36,106 nucleotides of DNA from Desulfobacca sp. (GTDB lineage Bacteria > Desulfobacterota > Desulfobaccia > Desulfobaccales > Desulfobaccaceae), in assembly GCA_028695935.1 (NCBI GenBank), contig JAQVHY010000016.1, positions 1 through 36,106 on the forward strand, read 5' to 3'. The notes under the pieces were generated by a model that was given only the letters and a program-made list of their open reading frames with translations, did not search any database and was not told where the DNA came from. The translations under genes and the position numbers were made by a program. Within the stretch, counting starts at the first letter, position 1; the number at the start of each line of letters is the position of its first letter. Below, in pieces: positions 20,592 through 31,058 of this stretch.

Positions 20592-21869
20592 ATGCCGGGC
20601 GACATAATCCCCTTGACTCAGCTAATCCGAAAAGATAACCTTGTCAAAACCATGCGCTATTGTATCGCCATCCCCACTTTTTGGACCCATCCCTCGGGGA
20701 CCGGGCCGGGAGAAATCATCTACGACCATCCGACCCCCCTGCATACTCGAGGGACTCTGAGACGGACCCTGGACAGTCTGAGTCCCCTGGTGTCGGACGC
20801 GGTCCAGGTAGTGGTAGTGGCTGCGGTTACGGCCCCTCAGCTTGAGGCCCCGGTGGCGGCTCAACTCCAGGAGCTCATACAATCTCCCCCCCTCCCCTAC
20901 CCGGTGGTTATGTTTGGTGGGTCTCAGTTACGGGCCTTGCAGGATATTCTCCACACCCGGGGGCAGGGGCATCTGGCCGGGTTGCTGTCCTTATCCGGCT
21001 ATTCCCAGGTCCGCAATCTGACCCTGGTTCTGGCCAATATCTGGGCAGCCGAGGTCCTGGTGAGTCTGGATGACGATGAGATCATTGCTGATCCCCATTT
21101 TTTGGATAAGATTGCGGAAGATTTCGCGGTCCTGTCCCAGGCGCATCCAATATTTGGTCTGGCCGGAATCTATCAGAACCGGGATGGCAGGGTCTTGGTG
21201 CCTGAACCTACCGCGCCCTGGACGGTTTATTGGCCCAAAATCCGCTGGATGAACATGGCTTTTAAAGACCTGATGCTCTCCGGCCCCCGGCTTAAACCTA
21301 CCCCGCTGGCCTTGGGCGGCAATTTAGCCCTCAGCGCCCGGCTATTTCGACAATTGCCTTTTGATCCCGCGCTTACTCGGGGAGAGGACATCGATTACGT
21401 GCTCAATGCCCGCCTTTTCAAGATCCCATTTTTCCTGGACAATACCCTGGCGGTTATTCATCTGCCACCCGAGAAACCGCATCCCGACTGGCTCCGACTC
21501 CGTCAGGATCTGGCGCGATTTCTTTATACCCGGCGAAAGCTCCGGGAACCCGCGCCGCAGCCGGGCCTGGCCTCCATTACCGCCGCGGAATTGAAGCCCT
21601 ATCCGGGTAATTTTTTGGAGGATGATTTAGAAGACCGGGCCGGCCACAGCCATACCCTGTTAGCCCTGGAATATCTGGCTAAAGGGCAGCCGCAAGCAGC
21701 CCTAGATACCCTGGAAAACCTGGCCCTGATCCAGGCGGCAAGCCAGCCCTCCTCTTCGGTCCTGGCGACCTATGTAGAAATGGTATCGGACTGGCAAAAG
21801 TTGCAGTCCTGGCTGGCCCGGCCGGAGGTCGCGGTCCGGGCCCGACACGCGGTAGAGGGCCAGCCTTGA
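20592..21869 (+). CDS. GT-A fold glycosyltransferase (GT2-like)
   Basis: CIAIPTFW; EVLVSLDDDEIIADPHF (DxD-like); LGGNLALSARLFRQLPFDPALTRGEDIDYVL. Internal ATG at 20652 is an alternative start. Confidence 0.7.
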   Translation: MPGDIIPLTQLIRKDNLVKTMRYCIAIPTFWTHPSGTGPGEIIYDHPTPLHTRGTLRRTLDSLSPLVSDAVQVVVVAAVTAPQLEAPVAAQLQELIQSPPLPYPVVMFGGSQLRALQDILHTRGQGHLAGLLSLSGYSQVRNLTLVLANIWAAEVLVSLDDDEIIADPHFLDKIAEDFAVLSQAHPIFGLAGIYQNRDGRVLVPEPTAPWTVYWPKIRWMNMAFKDLMLSGPRLKPTPLALGGNLALSARLFRQLPFDPALTRGEDIDYVLNARLFKIPFFLDNTLAVIHLPPEKPHPDWLRLRQDLARFLYTRRKLREPAPQPGLASITAAELKPYPGNFLEDDLEDRAGHSHTLLALEYLAKGQPQAALDTLENLALIQAASQPSSSVLATYVEMVSDWQKLQSWLARPEVAVRARHAVEGQP

Positions 21870-22948
21870 ACGCGGCTCCAACATTAATTAACCCCGCAGA
21901 TTGGGGGCGAGCCGCCAGGTTGCCGTCTCTGGGTTTATTACGATCAGGGAGTCTGAGCCTGGAGGAGCTGCTCCATATTAAGCAGGTCGAAGATCTGCCG
22001 GTACACCTGGTCTTTCCGGTGGGTGCGGCCCGCGAAGCGGCTAATTTGGCCCGTCTGTTGGCAATTTTGACGCCCCTTCATCGCAAGCTGATCGATCAGG
22101 TCTGGATCGCCTTTGGTGGACAACGGCCCGGCAACTTGGCGCGGCTGGCCCAGTCCGGCTCTGGGGTGCGTTTATTTCAGGCCCGGAAGTCGTTGCCCCC
22201 CGATCAACGGTCCGCCCCGATAGGGAAAGGGGCGGTGATGCGGGCTTTCCTGTACCATCTTTTGACGGAGGAGCAGGTCAGTAAAACGCGGGCGGTGGTA
22301 GAATTTATTGATGCCGATATCCGTCCCCCCTACTTTAATCCCCGCTGGGTGATTGACCCGATCGGGGCGATTCTCTGGTTTAAGGCCGTGGAAGCCGCCA
22401 AGGTGGTCTATCAGCGGCCGCGGGGCGGTCGTCTCAATGCCATCTGCCGGTCATTTCTGGCGCTGTGCCCACATCCCGGGGTGCAAGCCCTACAAAAATT
22501 GCTCTATCTGCTCTCTGGGGAAATCGCCGGGACCTTAAATTTCTGGACCGCGGTGCCGTTTAAGAGCGGCTATGGCGTAGAGACTCTGATCCTCTTATCT
22601 TTTGCCCTAAATCGCTTGCACCTGGTTCCCGGCACCGACGATCTGCAACACCTGATGCAGGTCTATTTAGGTCAGATGGATCACCGTCATGCCCCTCTTA
22701 ATTCAACTGCCCAAAAACGCGGGCTGGATCAGATGGCCGGAAACGTCTTTCATACCATGGTCGAGGTGTTGCGAGAGGCCGGAATCCTGACCTGGCAGCC
22801 GGACTTACCACCGGAGCCGGTATTAAATATTCCCGTGCCTCGGCAACAACTCGGGCAGCCGCCGGACTGGCTTCAGGTCCCGATGGCGGATGTGGCGTTG
22901 CCGCCGTTGCGCACCCTCCCAGAAATTCAGGCCCTAGGGAATTTTTGA
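21866..22948 (+). CDS. GT81/glucosyl-3-phosphoglycerate synthase-like glycosyltransferase (divergent)
   Basis: GKGAVMRAFLY; VVEFIDADIRPPYFNPRWV (DAD motif); LSGEIAGTLNFW; KSGYGVETLILL. TTG start overlaps the upstream stop codon (TTGA). Confidence 0.62.
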   Translation: MNAAPTLINPADWGRAARLPSLGLLRSGSLSLEELLHIKQVEDLPVHLVFPVGAAREAANLARLLAILTPLHRKLIDQVWIAFGGQRPGNLARLAQSGSGVRLFQARKSLPPDQRSAPIGKGAVMRAFLYHLLTEEQVSKTRAVVEFIDADIRPPYFNPRWVIDPIGAILWFKAVEAAKVVYQRPRGGRLNAICRSFLALCPHPGVQALQKLLYLLSGEIAGTLNFWTAVPFKSGYGVETLILLSFALNRLHLVPGTDDLQHLMQVYLGQMDHRHAPLNSTAQKRGLDQMAGNVFHTMVEVLREAGILTWQPDLPPEPVLNIPVPRQQLGQPPDWLQVPMADVALPPLRTLPEIQALGNF

Positions 22949-22956
22949 GGCCTACC

Positions 22957-23967
22957 ATGCAAATCGCTCAAATCGCTCCTCCCTGGATTCCGGTGCCGCC
23001 CCGCACCTATGGGGGTACAGAGCTGATGGTAGCGCTGTTGATCCGCGGTTTACTGGCCCGTGAGCATCAGGTACGGCTGTTCTGTGCAGGTGATTCGACT
23101 CTGCCTTTGCCCCATCAAGGCCCTTACCCAAAAGCCTTTTGGCCCCCGGATAAATTTTCGGAAAACTTACATCTCTCTTATGCTTGGGCGCAGTTGCACT
23201 GTGAGCCGCCCCAGGTAATCCATTCCCACCTGGAAAATGCCGCAGGTTTTTGGGCCGCGGGTCCGGCTCCGGCTCCTTTGGCGATTACTTTGCATACGCC
23301 TTTAACCCCAATCAAACGCGATTATCTACTACACTTTCCCCAGGTCCACCTGGTGGCAGTCAGTGACTTTCAATACCGGCAACTCCAAGCCCATCCCCGG
23401 CGGCATCTGATCCCGCATGGCCTGGATGTCAAGGACTATCCTTTTCGGACCGCAAAACAGGATCTCTTGCTGTTTCTGGGGCGCATTTACCCTGATAAAG
23501 GTTTACACACCGCCATCCGTCTGGCTCAAGATCTGGGTCAGCGCCTGCTGATTGCCGGGCCGGTTTTCGGCCCGGATCGGCCTTATTTTGATCAGCAGAT
23601 CCGGCCCCAGGTGGACGGCCAGCGAATTATCTATTTAGGACCGGCCGATTTTGCTCAGAAGGTTGACCTGCTAGGCCGGGCGCGCGGCCTGGTGTTGCCC
23701 CTGGAGGTTGACGAGGCCTTTGGACTGGTGCTATTAGAGTCTATGGCTTGTGGCACGCCGGTGTTAGCCTATGATCGCGGCGCGGTCGCCGAAGTCGTGG
23801 TCCAGGGGGAGACCGGTTTTGTAGTCCAGAACTATTCGGAGTTAAAGGACAAGTGTCGCCGATTAGCCGAAATCGACCCTTACCGTTGTCGGGAACAGGT
23901 AATGCAGCGCTTTTCTTTAGAGCAAATGGTTGAGGCCTATCTATCTCTCTACAACCAGATGCAATGA
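22957..23967 (+). CDS. GT4-family (GT-B fold) glycosyltransferase
   Basis: MQIAQIAPPWIPVPPRTYGGTELMVALL; LLFLGRIYPDKGLHTAIRLA; EVDEAFGLVLLESMACGTPVLAYDRGAVAEVVVQGETGF. ORF opens at TTG 22945; ATG 22957 likely. Confidence 0.9.
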   Translation: MQIAQIAPPWIPVPPRTYGGTELMVALLIRGLLAREHQVRLFCAGDSTLPLPHQGPYPKAFWPPDKFSENLHLSYAWAQLHCEPPQVIHSHLENAAGFWAAGPAPAPLAITLHTPLTPIKRDYLLHFPQVHLVAVSDFQYRQLQAHPRRHLIPHGLDVKDYPFRTAKQDLLLFLGRIYPDKGLHTAIRLAQDLGQRLLIAGPVFGPDRPYFDQQIRPQVDGQRIIYLGPADFAQKVDLLGRARGLVLPLEVDEAFGLVLLESMACGTPVLAYDRGAVAEVVVQGETGFVVQNYSELKDKCRRLAEIDPYRCREQVMQRFSLEQMVEAYLSLYNQMQ

Positions 23968-24251: not shown

Positions 24252-25559
24252 ATGTTAATCTCTCCTCTGGTGCTGAAATTAGGGCTGGTGCGCTTCGCCA
24301 CTTCATTATTAGTGGTGCTGCTGGCCAATGTTCTCAATCGGGTATTGATTGTGGAACTCCAGGTATCGGCCTCTTTGGTCACCTTTTGCTTTGCCTTCCA
24401 GCACGTCATGACGCCTATCGGCTTGGTCGCCGGTTATTTCTCCGATACCCGGTCGATTTGGGGGTGGCGTCGCCTGCCCTATATTTGGGGAGGGATGGCG
24501 CTGGCCCTGATAGTCATGCCCTTTTTCCCGATCTGGGGCCGGTCCCTGGCCTTGGAGCCTCAGAGTTGGGTGGTTCTTAATCAGGGGATATTGCTGTTTT
24601 CCCTGTTCGGCATTGGCACCACGGTGTCGGCTACGGCCATCAATGCCTTGCTGGTGGATCAGATTCCCGAGGCCGATCGCGGGTCGGCTCTTACCCTGGT
24701 GTGGATCATGACCCTGGCCGGGTTTATTGTCGGGTCCTCCTTGTTGCAGCATCTGCTACCGCTGTATAACCCGGCCTGGCTGGATGAGGTCTTTGGCATC
24801 GTCACCATCCTGGCCTTGTTGATCAGCCTCTGGGGGACTTGGGGGATTGAGAGCCGCACCGCTGGCACTCCGACCCCATTGCCCAGCTTATCCCACCTGT
24901 GGCCGACCCTGCGACTTCTGGGGAGCAATAACCAGGCCTTGATTTTTTTCGCCTTCCTGTGGGCCTCGGTTTTGTTTCTGGCCATCCAGACCTTTATTCT
25001 GACCTCTTATGGCGGCGAGGTGTTGCAGTTGCCGGTAGCGGAAACCACCCGGTTCGGGATTTATATCTCTTATGGGATAATTACCGGCATGATCGGAGGC
25101 CATCTGCTCTTAGGGCAGTGGAGCCGATTAGGAGCTAAGACCATCTTGGCCCTCAGTCTGATCTTGAGCAGTTTGGCCTTTGGCCTGCTCAGTCTGACCT
25201 CCTTCTCCCCCGCCCTGAACTTGGCCATTGGTTCTTTGTGGCTCTTGGGCCTGGCTCGGGGGCTTTATAACGTCGGGATTTCCTATCTGACCATGAGTCT
25301 GGCCCCTAGTGCCTGCAGCGGTGTGTTCATGGGGCTGTGGAATCTGGTCAGCGGCCTGGGTCTGGTGGCCGGGGAAATGGCCGGAGGGGTCCTGAGAGAC
25401 CAGACTCTGCAAAGGATCGGCGATCTCAACTGGACTTATGGCCTAATTTTTCTGCTGGAAGGACTTGGTCTATTGGGCAGTTTGGCCTTATTGTTTCCTT
25501 TGAATCGGGAAAGGTACTGGGAACGTTACAAGTTTTTGATTGCCAAACGGTCTGATTAG
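24252..25559 (+). CDS. MFS protein of the BCD/PucC/LhaA (bacteriochlorophyll delivery-like) family
   Basis: 435-aa, about 12 TM; NRVLIVELQVSASLV and GYFSDTRSIWGWRRLPYIWGG resemble the conserved NRVMIVEL...SDTHxSxxGWRRxPYIW signature of PucC-type proteins. Confidence 0.8.
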   Translation: MLISPLVLKLGLVRFATSLLVVLLANVLNRVLIVELQVSASLVTFCFAFQHVMTPIGLVAGYFSDTRSIWGWRRLPYIWGGMALALIVMPFFPIWGRSLALEPQSWVVLNQGILLFSLFGIGTTVSATAINALLVDQIPEADRGSALTLVWIMTLAGFIVGSSLLQHLLPLYNPAWLDEVFGIVTILALLISLWGTWGIESRTAGTPTPLPSLSHLWPTLRLLGSNNQALIFFAFLWASVLFLAIQTFILTSYGGEVLQLPVAETTRFGIYISYGIITGMIGGHLLLGQWSRLGAKTILALSLILSSLAFGLLSLTSFSPALNLAIGSLWLLGLARGLYNVGISYLTMSLAPSACSGVFMGLWNLVSGLGLVAGEMAGGVLRDQTLQRIGDLNWTYGLIFLLEGLGLLGSLALLFPLNRERYWERYKFLIAKRSD

Positions 25560-25695: not shown

Positions 25696-27015
25696 ATGTT
25701 TCGGCTGTTTCTGCTAATCGTCCTCTGCGTAATGGGTTGTGAAACTCCCACCGATATCGGGTCGCGGAAGACCATAATCTACACCTTTGATGGACTGACC
25801 CAAGATCTTATTCGCCAGTTGGCGCAGGATGACCCGGTTTATCAAAATTTTGATCGCCGTTTTAAGGGGCTATTCGTGCCGGGAAGATTGTTGGAATATG
25901 AGCCATTTGTATTGGCCCTGTCCACGGCCAGCAAAATTCCCACCGTGCTTTTATTAGATGCGCCCTGGGTCCATCGCTATGCCGTGAGTGGCTGGCTGTA
26001 TGAGCTAGAACGGACCGGCATCTACTCCAGAGGGGCCCTGGTGCCGGCCGTGGCCCAGGCCTTTTCAGTCCCGGTGCCTCAAAGTAACGGACAGTTGGCC
26101 GAGGAGTTGATGGCGGTTCCGACCTCCATTAAGGGTAACATTCTGTTTTATCGGCAGGACCTGTTGAAACGTTACCACCTGGCACCGCCCCGAGATTGGA
26201 CCGAATTAAAGGCCGTGTGCCGGAAAATTCTCCCTCAGGAACCAGGGCTGAAATATGGTTTAATCTTTCATGTGACAAATTTTAACAATGATTTCTATCC
26301 TATCCTCTGGGGCTTTGGTGGGGACATCCTGAACCGCCGGGGTGAACTGGTACTGCATGAACCGGAGATCTTGAACGCCGGCATCGCAGCCTTGCAGGAA
26401 ATTTGCGCCATGTCAGGGACTTTAACTCCTAGTGTGAAGGACTTAAAAAATTTCGAGGCCCCCCAAAGTCTGCGCCAGGCTTTTTATCAGGGCAAGACGC
26501 TGTTCATGATCAACTGGAATACCCGGATGCAGGACCTCAAAGAAATGATTCAGCATGGCGAAAATGTCGGCCCAGCAACACTAACCGATCTGAGCCAGAT
26601 CGGCGTAGCCCCGATCCCCTGTCAAAGCGGCCATTCTAACCGGTACTCTAATGTGGGCTCGTTTGGCTGGGGGATAAATCAATTTGCCATTACCAATTCC
26701 CAGATCAGGGAGACCGCGGCCAGATTTATTCAACTGGTGGCCGCGGAGCCGGTTCAGGTGCTGGCCGCGAAAAAAAAAGGACAGATTCCGGCCTTGGAGA
26801 GTGCCTTAGAACAAGTCAAAGGCACAGATGTCTGGCAGGTCTATCAGCAAATTTTTGCTTCGCAAGAGGTCCGGTTGCGTCCCCGACCCCAGAGTCGCCT
26901 GGTAAATAATATTCTCGAAGAACACCTTTTAGAGGCGTTATATGGCCAAAGCTCACCGGAGGCCGCCCTGACCGCCGCCAGTGTTGAGCTCAAAGAGTTG
27001 CTAAGGACGGAATAA
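25696..27015 (+). CDS. Extracellular solute-binding lipoprotein (ABC sugar-type SBP fold)
   Basis: Lipobox LCVMGC at residues ~10-15; AVPTSIKGNILFYRQDLLKRYHLAPPRDWTELKAVCRKIL and NRYSNVGSFGWGINQFA resemble MalE/UgpB-type SBPs. Confidence 0.82.
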   Translation: MFRLFLLIVLCVMGCETPTDIGSRKTIIYTFDGLTQDLIRQLAQDDPVYQNFDRRFKGLFVPGRLLEYEPFVLALSTASKIPTVLLLDAPWVHRYAVSGWLYELERTGIYSRGALVPAVAQAFSVPVPQSNGQLAEELMAVPTSIKGNILFYRQDLLKRYHLAPPRDWTELKAVCRKILPQEPGLKYGLIFHVTNFNNDFYPILWGFGGDILNRRGELVLHEPEILNAGIAALQEICAMSGTLTPSVKDLKNFEAPQSLRQAFYQGKTLFMINWNTRMQDLKEMIQHGENVGPATLTDLSQIGVAPIPCQSGHSNRYSNVGSFGWGINQFAITNSQIRETAARFIQLVAAEPVQVLAAKKKGQIPALESALEQVKGTDVWQVYQQIFASQEVRLRPRPQSRLVNNILEEHLLEALYGQSSPEAALTAASVELKELLRTE

Positions 27016-27016
27016 C

Positions 27017-28747
27017 ATGCTTGCCCCACCGCCCTTCTCTCGCGATTCCCTGCGTCACCGTCTAATGGCGCTCGGCGGTACCGCCTTCCTTATCTATTTA
27101 GTGGTGATTCTGTTATTTTTTCCTTTGCTCCATTTCACCCTGAAAGACCTGATGGAACGCACTATCAGATCCATCGAAGAACAAAAGGCCAATGAAGCCA
27201 CAACCATTGCCCGGCTCCTGGTACTGGAGTTTTCCCATCTGAGTGAGCTGTTGAATGTGGAGCCAGGGGTAGAGCAACAGATCGACCAGCGGGTTATGCG
27301 GCTGTTATGGGAAAAAGTCACTTTTAATGAGGTCATCGAAGGGATTGAACTTATCCATAGTGTATCCGATGCCGAAGGGCGCCATCTAACTTATTGGTAC
27401 TATCGTCGGGAAGAACCAGAATTGGAGCCGATGCCCGGACCCTTGCGAGGCTTGAAAAAATTCACCGGCTCGGAAAGGCAATTGCTCGAATCCATCAATA
27501 GCCAAAGGATAGTCAGAGAGGACCTCTTGGGAGCGGTCAACCGGGGTCCGAAACAGGAAGGGCAAATGCTGCTCCGTTATTTCCCCCTCTATATACCCTT
27601 ACCCGAGCTGGGAGCAATCTATTGGGGCGTTGCCAAAATCGGCATTGATGTGGACAGCATGCGCCGCATGTTGCTCTTTCAGAGCCAGGAGCAGAGTCGG
27701 ATCCGCAATGCTGTCGGGCTGGAAATTATGCTAAGTCTGCTAATCTCCGGCTTTCTGGCCCTGACCGTGGTCTATTTATGGACCAAGAAATTGACCCGAC
27801 CATTAGACTACCTCAGCCGAGTGGCCTATACCCTGGAAACCGGTCAGACTACCAATCTGGAGTTGTGGCATGATAATGTGGAACGGGTTGATCCCCAGGG
27901 TCAGGTCGAGGTTACCTACCTGCGCCAGGTGCTGATGCGCCTGGCCCAGACCATCGCTAGGGTTAGCCAGCAATTAGTCAGGGCCGAGGGCCAGGCCTGC
28001 CAGGGGCGAGTCGCCGGTAAAATTATCCCGACCCTGAAAATGCAGAGCCGGACCTGCCAGGAACTACAGGGCGAATTACAGGAGAGTTACCAGATCCTGC
28101 TCAACCTGTTGAAAGTTTATGAGTCCTTGCCTTCCCTGACGCCAGCCCAAAGGGAGGAGATGCGTGTGGTCCGAAAGCAACTGGAAGGCCCGGATAAGCG
28201 GTTGTCACCTGCCAAATGGCCGGCGCTGGCCACCACCCTGCAGACTCTGGACTCTTATCTCCGGGATTTAGGGCATTTTCTGGAACCCCCGGAGGCGGTA
28301 TGGGACTATGTCAACCTGATCCCCAGTCTGAACCGCACCTTAAATCTCATAGCCCCGACTCTAGCTCCTGAGGTCGAGATCAGGAAAGAATTTGAGATCT
28401 TGCCGGCGATCTGGGGCTGTCAGCGGGACCTGGATCAGGCCTGCCTTTATCTATTAGACTATGCCCGGCAGGAACTGGCCACGGGCGGCGAGTTAGTCAT
28501 CCAGACTCGTCAGCCTTCATCGAATCTGGTGGAAATCACTCTGAGTTTCTCCGGGCCACCAAAATCGGAGGCTGAAATCCAGACATTGCTGGCGCCTTTT
28601 CAAACCAGCGCCGCCCCCCCGATCCATTGGGGGGTGACTCTGGCCGCGGCTATTTTCCGCCAACACCACGGAGATCTCAGCATTAACCCAGGGGACGCAG
28701 GCGGGCTGATCATTACGGCCCAACTGCCCATTGCGGCATTGCCATGA
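27017..28747 (+). CDS. Membrane HAMP-domain protein with degenerate histidine-kinase-like C-terminus (putative pseudokinase)
   Basis: TM1 ~aa 15-45, extracytoplasmic domain, TM2 then KKLTRPLDYLSRVAYTLETG (HAMP); HATPase-like tail lacks recognisable H-box, N-box Asn, DxGxG and GxGLGL motifs. Confidence 0.75.
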   Translation: MLAPPPFSRDSLRHRLMALGGTAFLIYLVVILLFFPLLHFTLKDLMERTIRSIEEQKANEATTIARLLVLEFSHLSELLNVEPGVEQQIDQRVMRLLWEKVTFNEVIEGIELIHSVSDAEGRHLTYWYYRREEPELEPMPGPLRGLKKFTGSERQLLESINSQRIVREDLLGAVNRGPKQEGQMLLRYFPLYIPLPELGAIYWGVAKIGIDVDSMRRMLLFQSQEQSRIRNAVGLEIMLSLLISGFLALTVVYLWTKKLTRPLDYLSRVAYTLETGQTTNLELWHDNVERVDPQGQVEVTYLRQVLMRLAQTIARVSQQLVRAEGQACQGRVAGKIIPTLKMQSRTCQELQGELQESYQILLNLLKVYESLPSLTPAQREEMRVVRKQLEGPDKRLSPAKWPALATTLQTLDSYLRDLGHFLEPPEAVWDYVNLIPSLNRTLNLIAPTLAPEVEIRKEFEILPAIWGCQRDLDQACLYLLDYARQELATGGELVIQTRQPSSNLVEITLSFSGPPKSEAEIQTLLAPFQTSAAPPIHWGVTLAAAIFRQHHGDLSINPGDAGGLIITAQLPIAALP

Positions 28748-29568
28748 GTCAGACGGCGACGGTCTCGGAAATCGGCCGCATCCTGGGCCAGTTCCTGTCC
28801 CGCCGGTGGGCCAGCCTAGGCCGTCGCCTGGCCCTGATTCTGGACATCTTGGCGCTATTTTACCGCCTCTTGGTGGCCAGTTGGGTCAGCCCGGTGGGCT
28901 TTCCGGTAATCCTGCGAGAAACGGCCCGGCAAATTTACTTCACCGGCGTTCAAGGCGGCATAGTGGTGGGTATCGCGGCCCTAATCCTGGGGCTGTTGGT
29001 GATCGTTCATACTACCCCGAAGCTAATCGAACTTCAGGGGGAAGAATTCATTGGCCAACTGCTGGTCTTGATCGTTATCCGCGAAGTGGGGCCGGTGCTT
29101 ACCGCCTTTTTTGTCTTGCTACGCTCCGGCACGGCTATTATTGTGGAAATCGGTATCATGGTCGTAAGCCGGGAGCTAGCGGCTTTGCAACTTATGGGCA
29201 TCGATCCCCTGCGGTTCTTGGGCGTACCCCGATTTTGGGGAATTACCATCAGTATGCTAGCCTTATATATTTTGTCTAGTATAACCGCAGTGTTGGGCGG
29301 ATTTGTATTTGCCCAAATGTTCGCCGAGATCTATTGGCAAGGATTCTGGCTGTCATTGCTAAATGCGTTGGGATGGCCTGATCTGATCGTCGGCTTGGCT
29401 AAGGTCGTGCTGTTTGGTATGATGATCGCTACCGTCTCCCTGCATTACGGTTTAAAGGCCCAGGAGCATTTAGGTGCGGTAGTCCGGCAGACATCCCAAG
29501 GCGCGGTTTTGATACTTCTCCTCTGCGGGGCCATAGACGCCTTTTTAAGCACCGTTTTTTACTTATGA
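28744..29568 (+). CDS. MlaE-family ABC transporter permease
   Basis: IREVGPVLTAFFVLLRSGTAIIVEIGIMVVSRELAALQLMGIDPLRFLGVPRFWGI matches the MlaE core. ATGA overlap with upstream gene. Confidence 0.92.
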   Translation: MSQTATVSEIGRILGQFLSRRWASLGRRLALILDILALFYRLLVASWVSPVGFPVILRETARQIYFTGVQGGIVVGIAALILGLLVIVHTTPKLIELQGEEFIGQLLVLIVIREVGPVLTAFFVLLRSGTAIIVEIGIMVVSRELAALQLMGIDPLRFLGVPRFWGITISMLALYILSSITAVLGGFVFAQMFAEIYWQGFWLSLLNALGWPDLIVGLAKVVLFGMMIATVSLHYGLKAQEHLGAVVRQTSQGAVLILLLCGAIDAFLSTVFYL

Positions 29569-30341
29569 AGAACACTGTTGCCCGGCCCGAATCGGCCATC
29601 CTGATTCAACATAGCTTGGTACTGGACCAGGTAATTTTACCTGAGCATCCCGCGGATTGGCCCTGTCCGTTAAGTCTGACCTTAGGGTTAAAAGAATTTC
29701 TCCTCCTGGAGGGCCTGGATCTTGCCGCCGCCCAGCAACTTTTATCTTTAGCTGCAACCCTGCAGTTGGCGGTCCAGGGTCGGGTTCTGCTTTGGGGTCA
29801 GGATGTCGCCGCCGCAGCGCGGGATGACCTTTACCAACGGCGTCGCCGTCTAGCTTATCTGGCCCCTGGGCAGGTGCTCCTCCATCGCCTGACGGTGTTG
29901 GAAAATATCACCTTGCCGGGGCGATATTTTCAGCAACGAAGCATCAGCGAGATCATCAAGGATAACTCCGAGCTGCTCGCGACTCTGGGGTTAACGCCTT
30001 ATTTTTCCTGTTACCCCACGGAACTCCCGGCCGATATTTATTTCCGGGCGCTGTGGGCCCGAGCCTTCCTTAAGGATCCGGAGCTAATTCTGGCCGCGCC
30101 TGGGGCCGGGGCCACCACACCAGAAAATAATCGTTTAATTCTGATGCTGTTAAGGGATTACCGGGAGCAGCGGCGGGGCGCGGTGCTGCTGACCGGCCCC
30201 GGTCTGGAGGCGTTTCCTTCCCTGGCTGACCGCTGCTTCCGCCTGGAATCCCGGGGCCTGATCGAAATCCGCGTCCCAGGGCAAACCGCCCCGTCCCTCA
30301 CTCCATATCTCCTATTTTGGAGCAGTGTTAAGCAGAGATGA
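29565..30341 (+). CDS. ABC-transporter ATPase-like protein lacking canonical catalytic motifs (putative pseudo-ATPase partner of the MlaE permease)
   Basis: Overall MlaF-like layout (LGLKEFLLLEG; RRRRLAYLAPGQVLLHRLTVLENITLP; PTELPADIYFRALWARAFLKDPELILAAPGAGATTPENN), but no GxxGxGK[ST], no LSGG, no DEP. ATGA overlap with MlaE gene. Confidence 0.78.
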   Translation: MKNTVARPESAILIQHSLVLDQVILPEHPADWPCPLSLTLGLKEFLLLEGLDLAAAQQLLSLAATLQLAVQGRVLLWGQDVAAAARDDLYQRRRRLAYLAPGQVLLHRLTVLENITLPGRYFQQRSISEIIKDNSELLATLGLTPYFSCYPTELPADIYFRALWARAFLKDPELILAAPGAGATTPENNRLILMLLRDYREQRRGAVLLTGPGLEAFPSLADRCFRLESRGLIEIRVPGQTAPSLTPYLLFWSSVKQR

Positions 30342-30506: not shown

Positions 30507-31058
30507 ATGACTCCAGCACCAGGTAAAGAGCCTCCGGCAGTCAAAATCTCTGATCCAGAGATTGAAGAGGAAATTATTGAATTAACCGAGGTGATCTCCG
30601 CGGGGAAAAGCGTGGCGCCCCAAGCTGAAGGGAATGTTGAAACTTTAATCGAACTCCCCCCCGAACTCGAGGCTCTAGATTCCTTAAATTTAGAGGCCTT
30701 AGCACCGGATGAGGCGGAGAATCTGGAGTCTGCGCCCCCGGAAACCGAGTGGGATCAATCTTCTCTGGCCCGAGCCGAGCAGCCAGCGCCGACGGTTCCG
30801 GCTCCATCCGCCAGCGAACCTGAATCGGCCCCCGCGGCTAACGAACCTTTGGCGCAGGTGGTCGAAGCCCATAGCGTTGAGCAGTTAATACAAACGGTTG
30901 TAGCCCGTTTTGATGATGCGCGCCTACAGGAAATTGTGGCCGGGGTTATCCAGGAAGTGGCGGAAAGAGTCTGCCGGGAACTTTTCCCGCCCATTGCTGA
31001 AAAGATAATCAATAGGGAAATTGAGGCCTTAAAGGAAAATCTGGAAGACGCCCCCTGA
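30507..31058 (+). CDS. Acidic, Pro/Glu/Ala-rich protein with C-terminal amphipathic helices (PopZ/DUF2497-reminiscent)
   Basis: Low-complexity acidic N-terminus; C-term VEQLIQTVVARFDDARLQEIVAGVIQEVAERVCRELFPPIAEKIINREIEALKENLE. Confidence 0.6.
   Translation: MTPAPGKEPPAVKISDPEIEEEIIELTEVISAGKSVAPQAEGNVETLIELPPELEALDSLNLEALAPDEAENLESAPPETEWDQSSLARAEQPAPTVPAPSASEPESAPAANEPLAQVVEAHSVEQLIQTVVARFDDARLQEIVAGVIQEVAERVCRELFPPIAEKIINREIEALKENLEDAP

Follow-up and report, generated by a model that had tools for sequence, protein, structure and literature searches.

We identified a four-gene operon in a contig of Desulfobacca sp. (the window, i.e., the whole stretch of 36,106 nucleotides that was analysed) which encodes, in this order, an SBP lipoprotein, a histidine-kinase-like receptor, an MlaE permease, and an ABC ATPase-like protein. 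Both the kinase-like and the ATPase-like proteins have lost their catalytic residues and are maintained in this state in relatives, and an unlinked MCE gene in the same genome appears to provide the partner of the permease. We propose, with a probability of roughly 0.42, that these genes encode the inner-membrane part of a lipid transporter of the MCE (Mla) type which has abandoned its own ATP hydrolysis and become coupled to a ligand receptor.

The coordinates of the open reading frames confirm the same-strand arrangement described in a first-pass annotation of this DNA, with a 1-nt gap between the SBP and receptor genes followed by two ATGA overlaps (Table 1). The quartet proposed there is real but incomplete, as the unit extends in the 5' direction to a PUCC-type MFS gene and usually to three more genes, two of them encoding glycosyltransferases. 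In relatives, the PUCC gene is also located immediately upstream of the SBP gene, with a gap of 1-2 nt or an overlap in several genomes of family f2, and the upstream block usually continues with GT4, GT2, and a TPR-containing protein, being syntenic in most of the 14 genomes that carry the operon. The exception in G018 consists of PUCC-SBP-receptor-MlaE-pseudo-ATPase without the other three upstream genes beside it. A PDB search with the GT2 protein retrieved GpgS chains (E ~1e-8), and TPRx gave only a weak TPR match and no match in Pfam. Between the operon and valS, an acidic 183-aa protein without a family match is encoded at window positions 30507-31058, which is also kept in G002.

Table 1. 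Features of the operon and its upstream block (window coordinates)
Feature	Position	Strand	Remarks
Four-gene set	25696-30341	+ (all genes)	ORFs 25696-27015, 27017-28747, 28744-29568, 29565-30341
TPRx, conserved protein with C-terminal TPR-like stretch	20592..21869	+	First gene of upstream block; syntenic in most relatives
GT2 glycosyltransferase, distantly like glucosyl-3-phosphoglycerate synthase (GpgS)	21866..22948	+	NCBIfam 3e-14; syntenic
GT4 family glycosyltransferase	22945..23967	+	Pfam Glycos_transf_1 2e-23; syntenic
PUCC-type major facilitator transporter	24252..25559	+	Pfam PUCC 3e-62
SBP lipoprotein, sugar-binder type	25696..27015	+	Lipobox VMGC; SBP_bac_8 6e-16 and SBP_bac_1 (Pfam)
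Pseudo-histidine-kinase receptor	27017..28747	+	Two TM helices, periplasmic domain, coiled/DHp-like helix, degenerate CA domain
Receptor periplasmic sensor domain, about residues 39-228	27131..27700	+	Only in Desulfobaccales among 395 phylum genomes
MlaE-family permease	28744..29568	+	Pfam MlaE; MlaE chain of PDB 7ch8; tree
Pseudo-ABC ATPase in MlaF position	29565..30341	+	Without Walker A, Walker B, signature, Q-loop, and H-switch residues
Pseudo-ATPase residues 93-118, Q-loop into helical subdomain	29841..29918	+	Permease-docking stretch of ABC proteins; highly conserved

Orthologues of the SBP, receptor, MlaE, and pseudo-ATPase genes are each present in the same 14 of 29 Desulfobaccales genomes and missing from the same 15, in which distant SBP, kinase, and ATPase homologues score far lower and are separated by a wide gap in E-values. 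Such a neighborhood search had been suggested in the first-pass annotation as the way to recognise genes that do not co-occur or a one-off rearrangement, and the set came through it; a chance or one-off arrangement was rejected on the basis of synteny over the 14 genomes. Fisher's test on the co-occurrence gives 1.3e-8, a figure that overstates the case because related genomes are counted as independent and gain or loss events are few. A better argument for co-retention is provided by genus g2 (G003-G006), in which the pseudo-ATPase gene lies outside the operon, yet has been retained and is dead as well. These lone genes are located at L039:9387-10214, L040:9123-10043, L041:7697-8479, and L042:1729-2559, three of them near CbiK-like, tatC-like, or mutL-like genes. 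The window genome belongs to Desulfobaccales; among named relatives, a Desulfobacca MAG is the closest, with 91% identity over the receptor, and a scan of a contig collection (84,980 species), which is not exhaustive and detects only genomes carrying two short peptide patterns, revealed eight loci in MAGs labelled Desulfobacca, Desulfobaccales, Syntrophobacterales, or Deltaproteobacteria. When compared with the nearest and a more distant relative, dN/dS is 0.13 and 0.18 for the receptor and 0.30 and 0.20 for the pseudo-ATPase, respectively, indicating purifying selection on both. Because the decay pattern is conserved over 14 genomes and dN/dS is this low, neither chance nor sequencing error accounts for it, and frameshifts were rejected given the intact reading frames.

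The product of the fourth gene has no match in Pfam. NCBIfam groups it with ABC ATPases (DevA 5e-17, FtsE, MetN, LolD, and MlaF 2e-8), a relationship also recovered by a profile search of solved structures. The residues by which an Mla ATPase is recognised (Walker A Lys, Walker B Asp/Glu, signature, and H-switch) are lacking: Walker A Lys is replaced by A, Q-loop Gln by P, signature Gly by A/D, Walker B Asp/Glu by A/P, and switch His by P. All catalytic residues are present in the other five Mla ATPases that this genome encodes, which serve as an internal control; therefore, it is specifically the fourth-gene protein that is dead. Neither a Walker A motif nor the Walker B Asp-Glu pair is present in any of the 14 aligned orthologues, although the one from G016 shows a His in line with the switch residue. 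The dead ATPase suspected in the first-pass annotation is thus borne out residue by residue, with a pattern that is conserved over 14 genomes. Residues 93-118 rank third among 186 sliding windows by conservation, and the post-signature helix and Walker B strand, which belong to the fold core, are likewise conserved; the most conserved parts of the protein do not include the Walker A, signature, and D-loop stretches. Since the docking stretch is conserved while the nucleotide loops decay, we infer that the pseudo-ATPase may still be seated on MlaE, with a role in structure or gating. An AlphaFold model built from 10 sequences was too poor for use (pLDDT 38).

A similar loss has affected the receptor, whose match to HATPase_c is only 0.0015, below the Pfam cut-off. 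Its periplasmic domain comprises about 190 residues and the coiled/DHp-like helix is long. Based on motif positions that we assigned from the alignment, the H-box His is replaced by Pro, the N-box Asn residues by Tyr, and the G1 Asp by Phe in the window protein; nine of the ten aligned receptors have Pro instead of the phosphoacceptor His, and in the alignment Tyr or Phe takes the place of the N-box Asn residues and Phe or Val that of the G1 Asp. The protein therefore lacks the phosphoacceptor His and the ATP-binding N and G boxes of a sensor histidine kinase, in agreement with the dead kinase module noted earlier. The DHp-CA fold is kept, with the CA region modelled at a pLDDT of ~90 and Foldseek matches to ZraS, DivL, and HK853 (~1e-10 to 1e-12); confidence in the predicted sensor domain is low. 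Neither the receptor nor its sensor domain (E<=1e-4 for the latter) was detected outside Desulfobaccales among the 395 genomes of the phylum. Inspection of the ORFs beside the operon, some of which were run against Pfam, revealed no apparent response regulator or other output gene.

The closest solved structure to the SBP is the maltose-binding MalE3 (6e-23), followed by trehalose/maltose binders, and the protein resembles glycoside binders including the sulfoquinovosyl-glycerol binder SmoF. Its distant homologues sit in operons with MalF/MalG-like permeases. Judging from this kinship, the SBP belongs with the CUT1 type and appears to be derived from the sugar-importer side. The absence of MalFG permeases pointed out in the first-pass annotation is correct for the conserved operon, in which MalF, MalG, and MalK were not found in any of the relatives' loci inspected. 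Comparison of the 12 BPD_transp_1 proteins of the genome and their neighboring genes with MalF/MalG of relatives recognised no CUT1 permease pair, and the possibility that the SBP serves MalFG elsewhere in the genome was rejected. An apparently full importer (SBP, two permeases, and ATPase) is encoded in G001 (L181:6933-11027), its SBP being a distant homologue of the window SBP.

The third protein contains an MlaE domain (PF02405; 2.8e-49, 168 bits against a cut-off of 22.5) and aligns with the MlaE chain of PDB 7ch8 (3.5e-25), without gaps in the region around DPLR..PR. MlaE and MlaD/MCE genes number six each in this genome; five of each lie side by side as pairs, and each of these five pairs has its own active-looking ATPase. 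The unpaired MlaE is the window gene, and the unpaired MCE gene is located at G000:C148, followed by a TPR lipoprotein gene. In G015 and G016, the orthologous MCE and TPR lipoprotein pair adjoins the operon, in convergent orientation to the pseudo-ATPase gene. Of the 14 operon-positive genomes, 13 contain the MCE orthologue (the exception, G025, is 72% complete), and its tree mirrors the MlaE tree with the same grouping (support 99/100). On the grounds of pairing, synteny, co-occurrence, and tree topology, the MCE protein and TPR lipoprotein of G000:C148 are the predicted partner of the window MlaE, and lipid would be the cargo judging by the MlaE and MCE families. The earlier remark that MlaD is absent is consequently true of the operon and false of the system, and the reading of a transporter without MlaD was rejected. 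The same genome also contains an MlaE-MlaF-MCE-TPR lipoprotein operon with an intact ATPase (L054:7793-11300), which represents a natural control.

The dead ATPase is not confined to the quartet. Outside the order, the genes for the nearest MlaE relatives belong to MlaE-ATPase-MCE operons, and in most cases a TPR lipoprotein gene comes next. The MlaE tree groups the Desulfobaccales proteins with families f18, f63, and f94 in a clade of 21 rows (support 100/98), and the catalytic residues are gone from every ATPase read in this clade. ATPases of the sister clade keep Walker A and mostly Walker B, but their H-switch and second signature Gly are gone. The earlier picture of a novel quartet is thus incomplete with regard to the dead ATPase, which is shared with plain MlaE-ATPase-MCE-TPR operons of other families. 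Because the window MlaE clades with operons of other families that have dead ATPases too, loss of ATPase activity probably predates the gain of the SBP and receptor. In the simplest history, ATPase activity may have been lost first, after which the MlaE-pseudo-ATPase module of Desulfobaccales would have joined the SBP and pseudo-kinase while the MCE pair became separated; as the tree was rooted at midpoint, this order of steps is tentative.

How such a system might work can be outlined as follows. MlaE and the pseudo-ATPase would form the usual ABC-shaped core, with the latter kept as a structural or gating subunit, and the MCE protein and TPR lipoprotein from G000:C148 would form the route of lipid through the periplasm. 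The SBP, presumably taken over from a sugar importer, might signal the presence of a glycoside in the periplasm to the sensor domain of the pseudo-kinase, which could relay the change via its coiled helix to the core and gate a lipid flow that would run down its own gradient without any use of ATP. Binding of a glycoside, docking of the SBP on the receptor, and action of the receptor on the core are suggested by gene order, domain type, and co-retention. In the Mla system, lipid reportedly passes from MlaD to MlaC spontaneously and independently of ATP, and ATP hydrolysis is reported to suppress the transfer (PMC10212509); therefore, a system without an ATPase would be expected to pass lipid down the gradient, and a receptor able to gate this flow would be useful. 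A counterpoint is that E. coli Mla needs the ATPase activity of MlaF, as the Walker A allele K47R fails to complement (PMC5016091). The ligand-gated, non-canonical envelope transport or sensing complex imagined in the first-pass annotation is supported in part, in that a non-canonical, co-occurring set with two degenerate modules does exist, and has to be amended in that an MCE/MlaD partner is not lacking. A bolder and doubtful version of this proposal is that, in one branch of the ABC-shaped lipid transporters, gating by a periplasmic ligand receptor has taken the place of ATP hydrolysis for good, the SBP and pseudo-kinase opening and closing an ATP-free MlaE-MCE conduit, i.e., a receptor-gated intermembrane lipid channel.

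The chief rival, which we consider unlikely, is that the MlaE core is still driven by ATP through an active MlaF paralogue acting in trans, the pseudo-ATPase being a regulator or an asymmetric second subunit. Five intact MlaF-type ATPases are available in the genome, the mycobacterial ATPase MceG is shared by the Mce1 and Mce4 transporters (PMC9947336), and ATPase activity is required by E. coli Mla, as mentioned above. However, all five intact ATPases have their own adjacent MlaE and MlaD, the pseudo-ATPase holds the MlaF gene position with its docking stretch kept, and, within the dead-ATPase clade, all families read have a dead protein encoded at this operon position. Moreover, MlaE is a homodimer in the 2:2:6:2 complex (PMC10212509), and a mixed ATPase pair would have no obvious place there. 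The idea that the ATPase and kinase are simply decaying toward loss without any function fits the loss of all catalytic motifs, but is scarcely credible in view of dN/dS values of 0.13-0.30, frames intact across two families, co-retention after relocation, and the dead ATPases of sister families.

It is also conceivable, if quite improbable, that the glycosyltransferases and PUCC make or handle a glycoside or glycolipid which is sensed by the SBP and receptor and carried to the outer membrane by MlaE, the pseudo-ATPase, and MCE. The GpgS-like GT2 upstream, the synteny of GT4 and PUCC in most of the 14 genomes, and the similarity of the SBP to glycoside binders such as SmoF are in line with this possibility, although the G018 operon has no such three genes beside it and no lipid-modifying enzyme was identified; this reading is compatible with the best explanation, the main difference being the cargo. 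Sensor-transporter complexes such as BceAB-BceS exist, and with both enzymes dead the SBP and pseudo-kinase could instead act as a pure glycoside sensor, for which MlaE, the pseudo-ATPase, and MCE would be a signalling scaffold and not a transporter. This appears very improbable: no response regulator or output gene is apparent among the inspected ORFs beside the operon, and plain MlaE/dead-ATPase/MCE/TPR operons occur in other families without SBP or receptor; therefore, transport probably precedes sensing.

Among known systems, MlaFEDB/MlaEFD share with the window system the MlaE permease, an ATPase-family subunit in the MlaF position, and an MCE protein with an MlaD domain. The window system differs in that its ATPase is devoid of any catalytic residue, an SBP and a pseudo-kinase have been added, the MCE gene is unlinked in most genomes, and a TPR lipoprotein gene lies 3' of it. 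The partners MlaA, MlaB, and MlaC are restricted to E. coli-type systems, and a minimal MlaEFD core that lacks all three has been described (PMC10665443). LetAB and PqiABC also represent MCE transport without a known ATPase, and for PqiA, passive action, an unidentified ATPase, or the PMF are the options given (PMC10897342); however, neither LetA nor PqiA is an MlaE permease, and both are without an ABC subunit, whereas the window system keeps the ABC shape with a dead NBD. The closest MlaE/MCE relatives, operons L198, L199, and L203 from other Desulfobacterota families, have a dead ATPase in the same slot and the same TPR lipoprotein family, but lack SBP and pseudo-kinase and carry MlaE, ATPase, MCE, and TPR lipoprotein genes all in one operon. 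With CUT1 importers (MalE/MalFGK type), the SBP family is shared, MalF/MalG/MalK being missing from the window operon. SBP-coupled sensor kinases are known from systems of the LuxP-LuxQ and TorT-TorS type, and the likeness is a periplasmic binding protein beside a two-TM receptor with a kinase-shaped cytoplasmic part; in contrast, the window kinase is catalytically dead, is linked to MlaE, and has no response regulator among the inspected neighbors. We found no match in the open-access literature for MlaE with a dead ATPase or for histidine pseudokinases linked to ABC transporters; the attachment of a sugar-binding protein and a dead kinase to a lipid transporter is a coupling without description in the papers searched. 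A dead-motor lipid pump with an SBP and a dead receptor in a group of sulfate-reducing bacteria suggests a lipid conduit that is gated by a signal and not powered by ATP. The direction of Mla lipid transport (outward or inward) and the role of ATP are debated, and a natural clade with a decayed ATPase but retained MlaE and MCE is an experiment made by evolution, which predicts ATP-independent flow and offers a clean system in which to measure it.

A further branch of the MlaE tree (families f58 and f92) shows partial or complete ATPase loss that is apparently separate. In L207:12333-13442, L208:4924-6018, and L209:12131-13216, a sensor-kinase-related protein is encoded directly 3' of the MlaE-ATPase-MCE-TPR operon, and the L209 protein contains response regulator, HisKA, and HATPase domains according to Pfam. 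The ATPase beside the kinase-related gene has lost Walker B in f58, and the Walker A Lys is also lost in L208. This arrangement is apparently a second, independent link of a transporter of this type to signalling.
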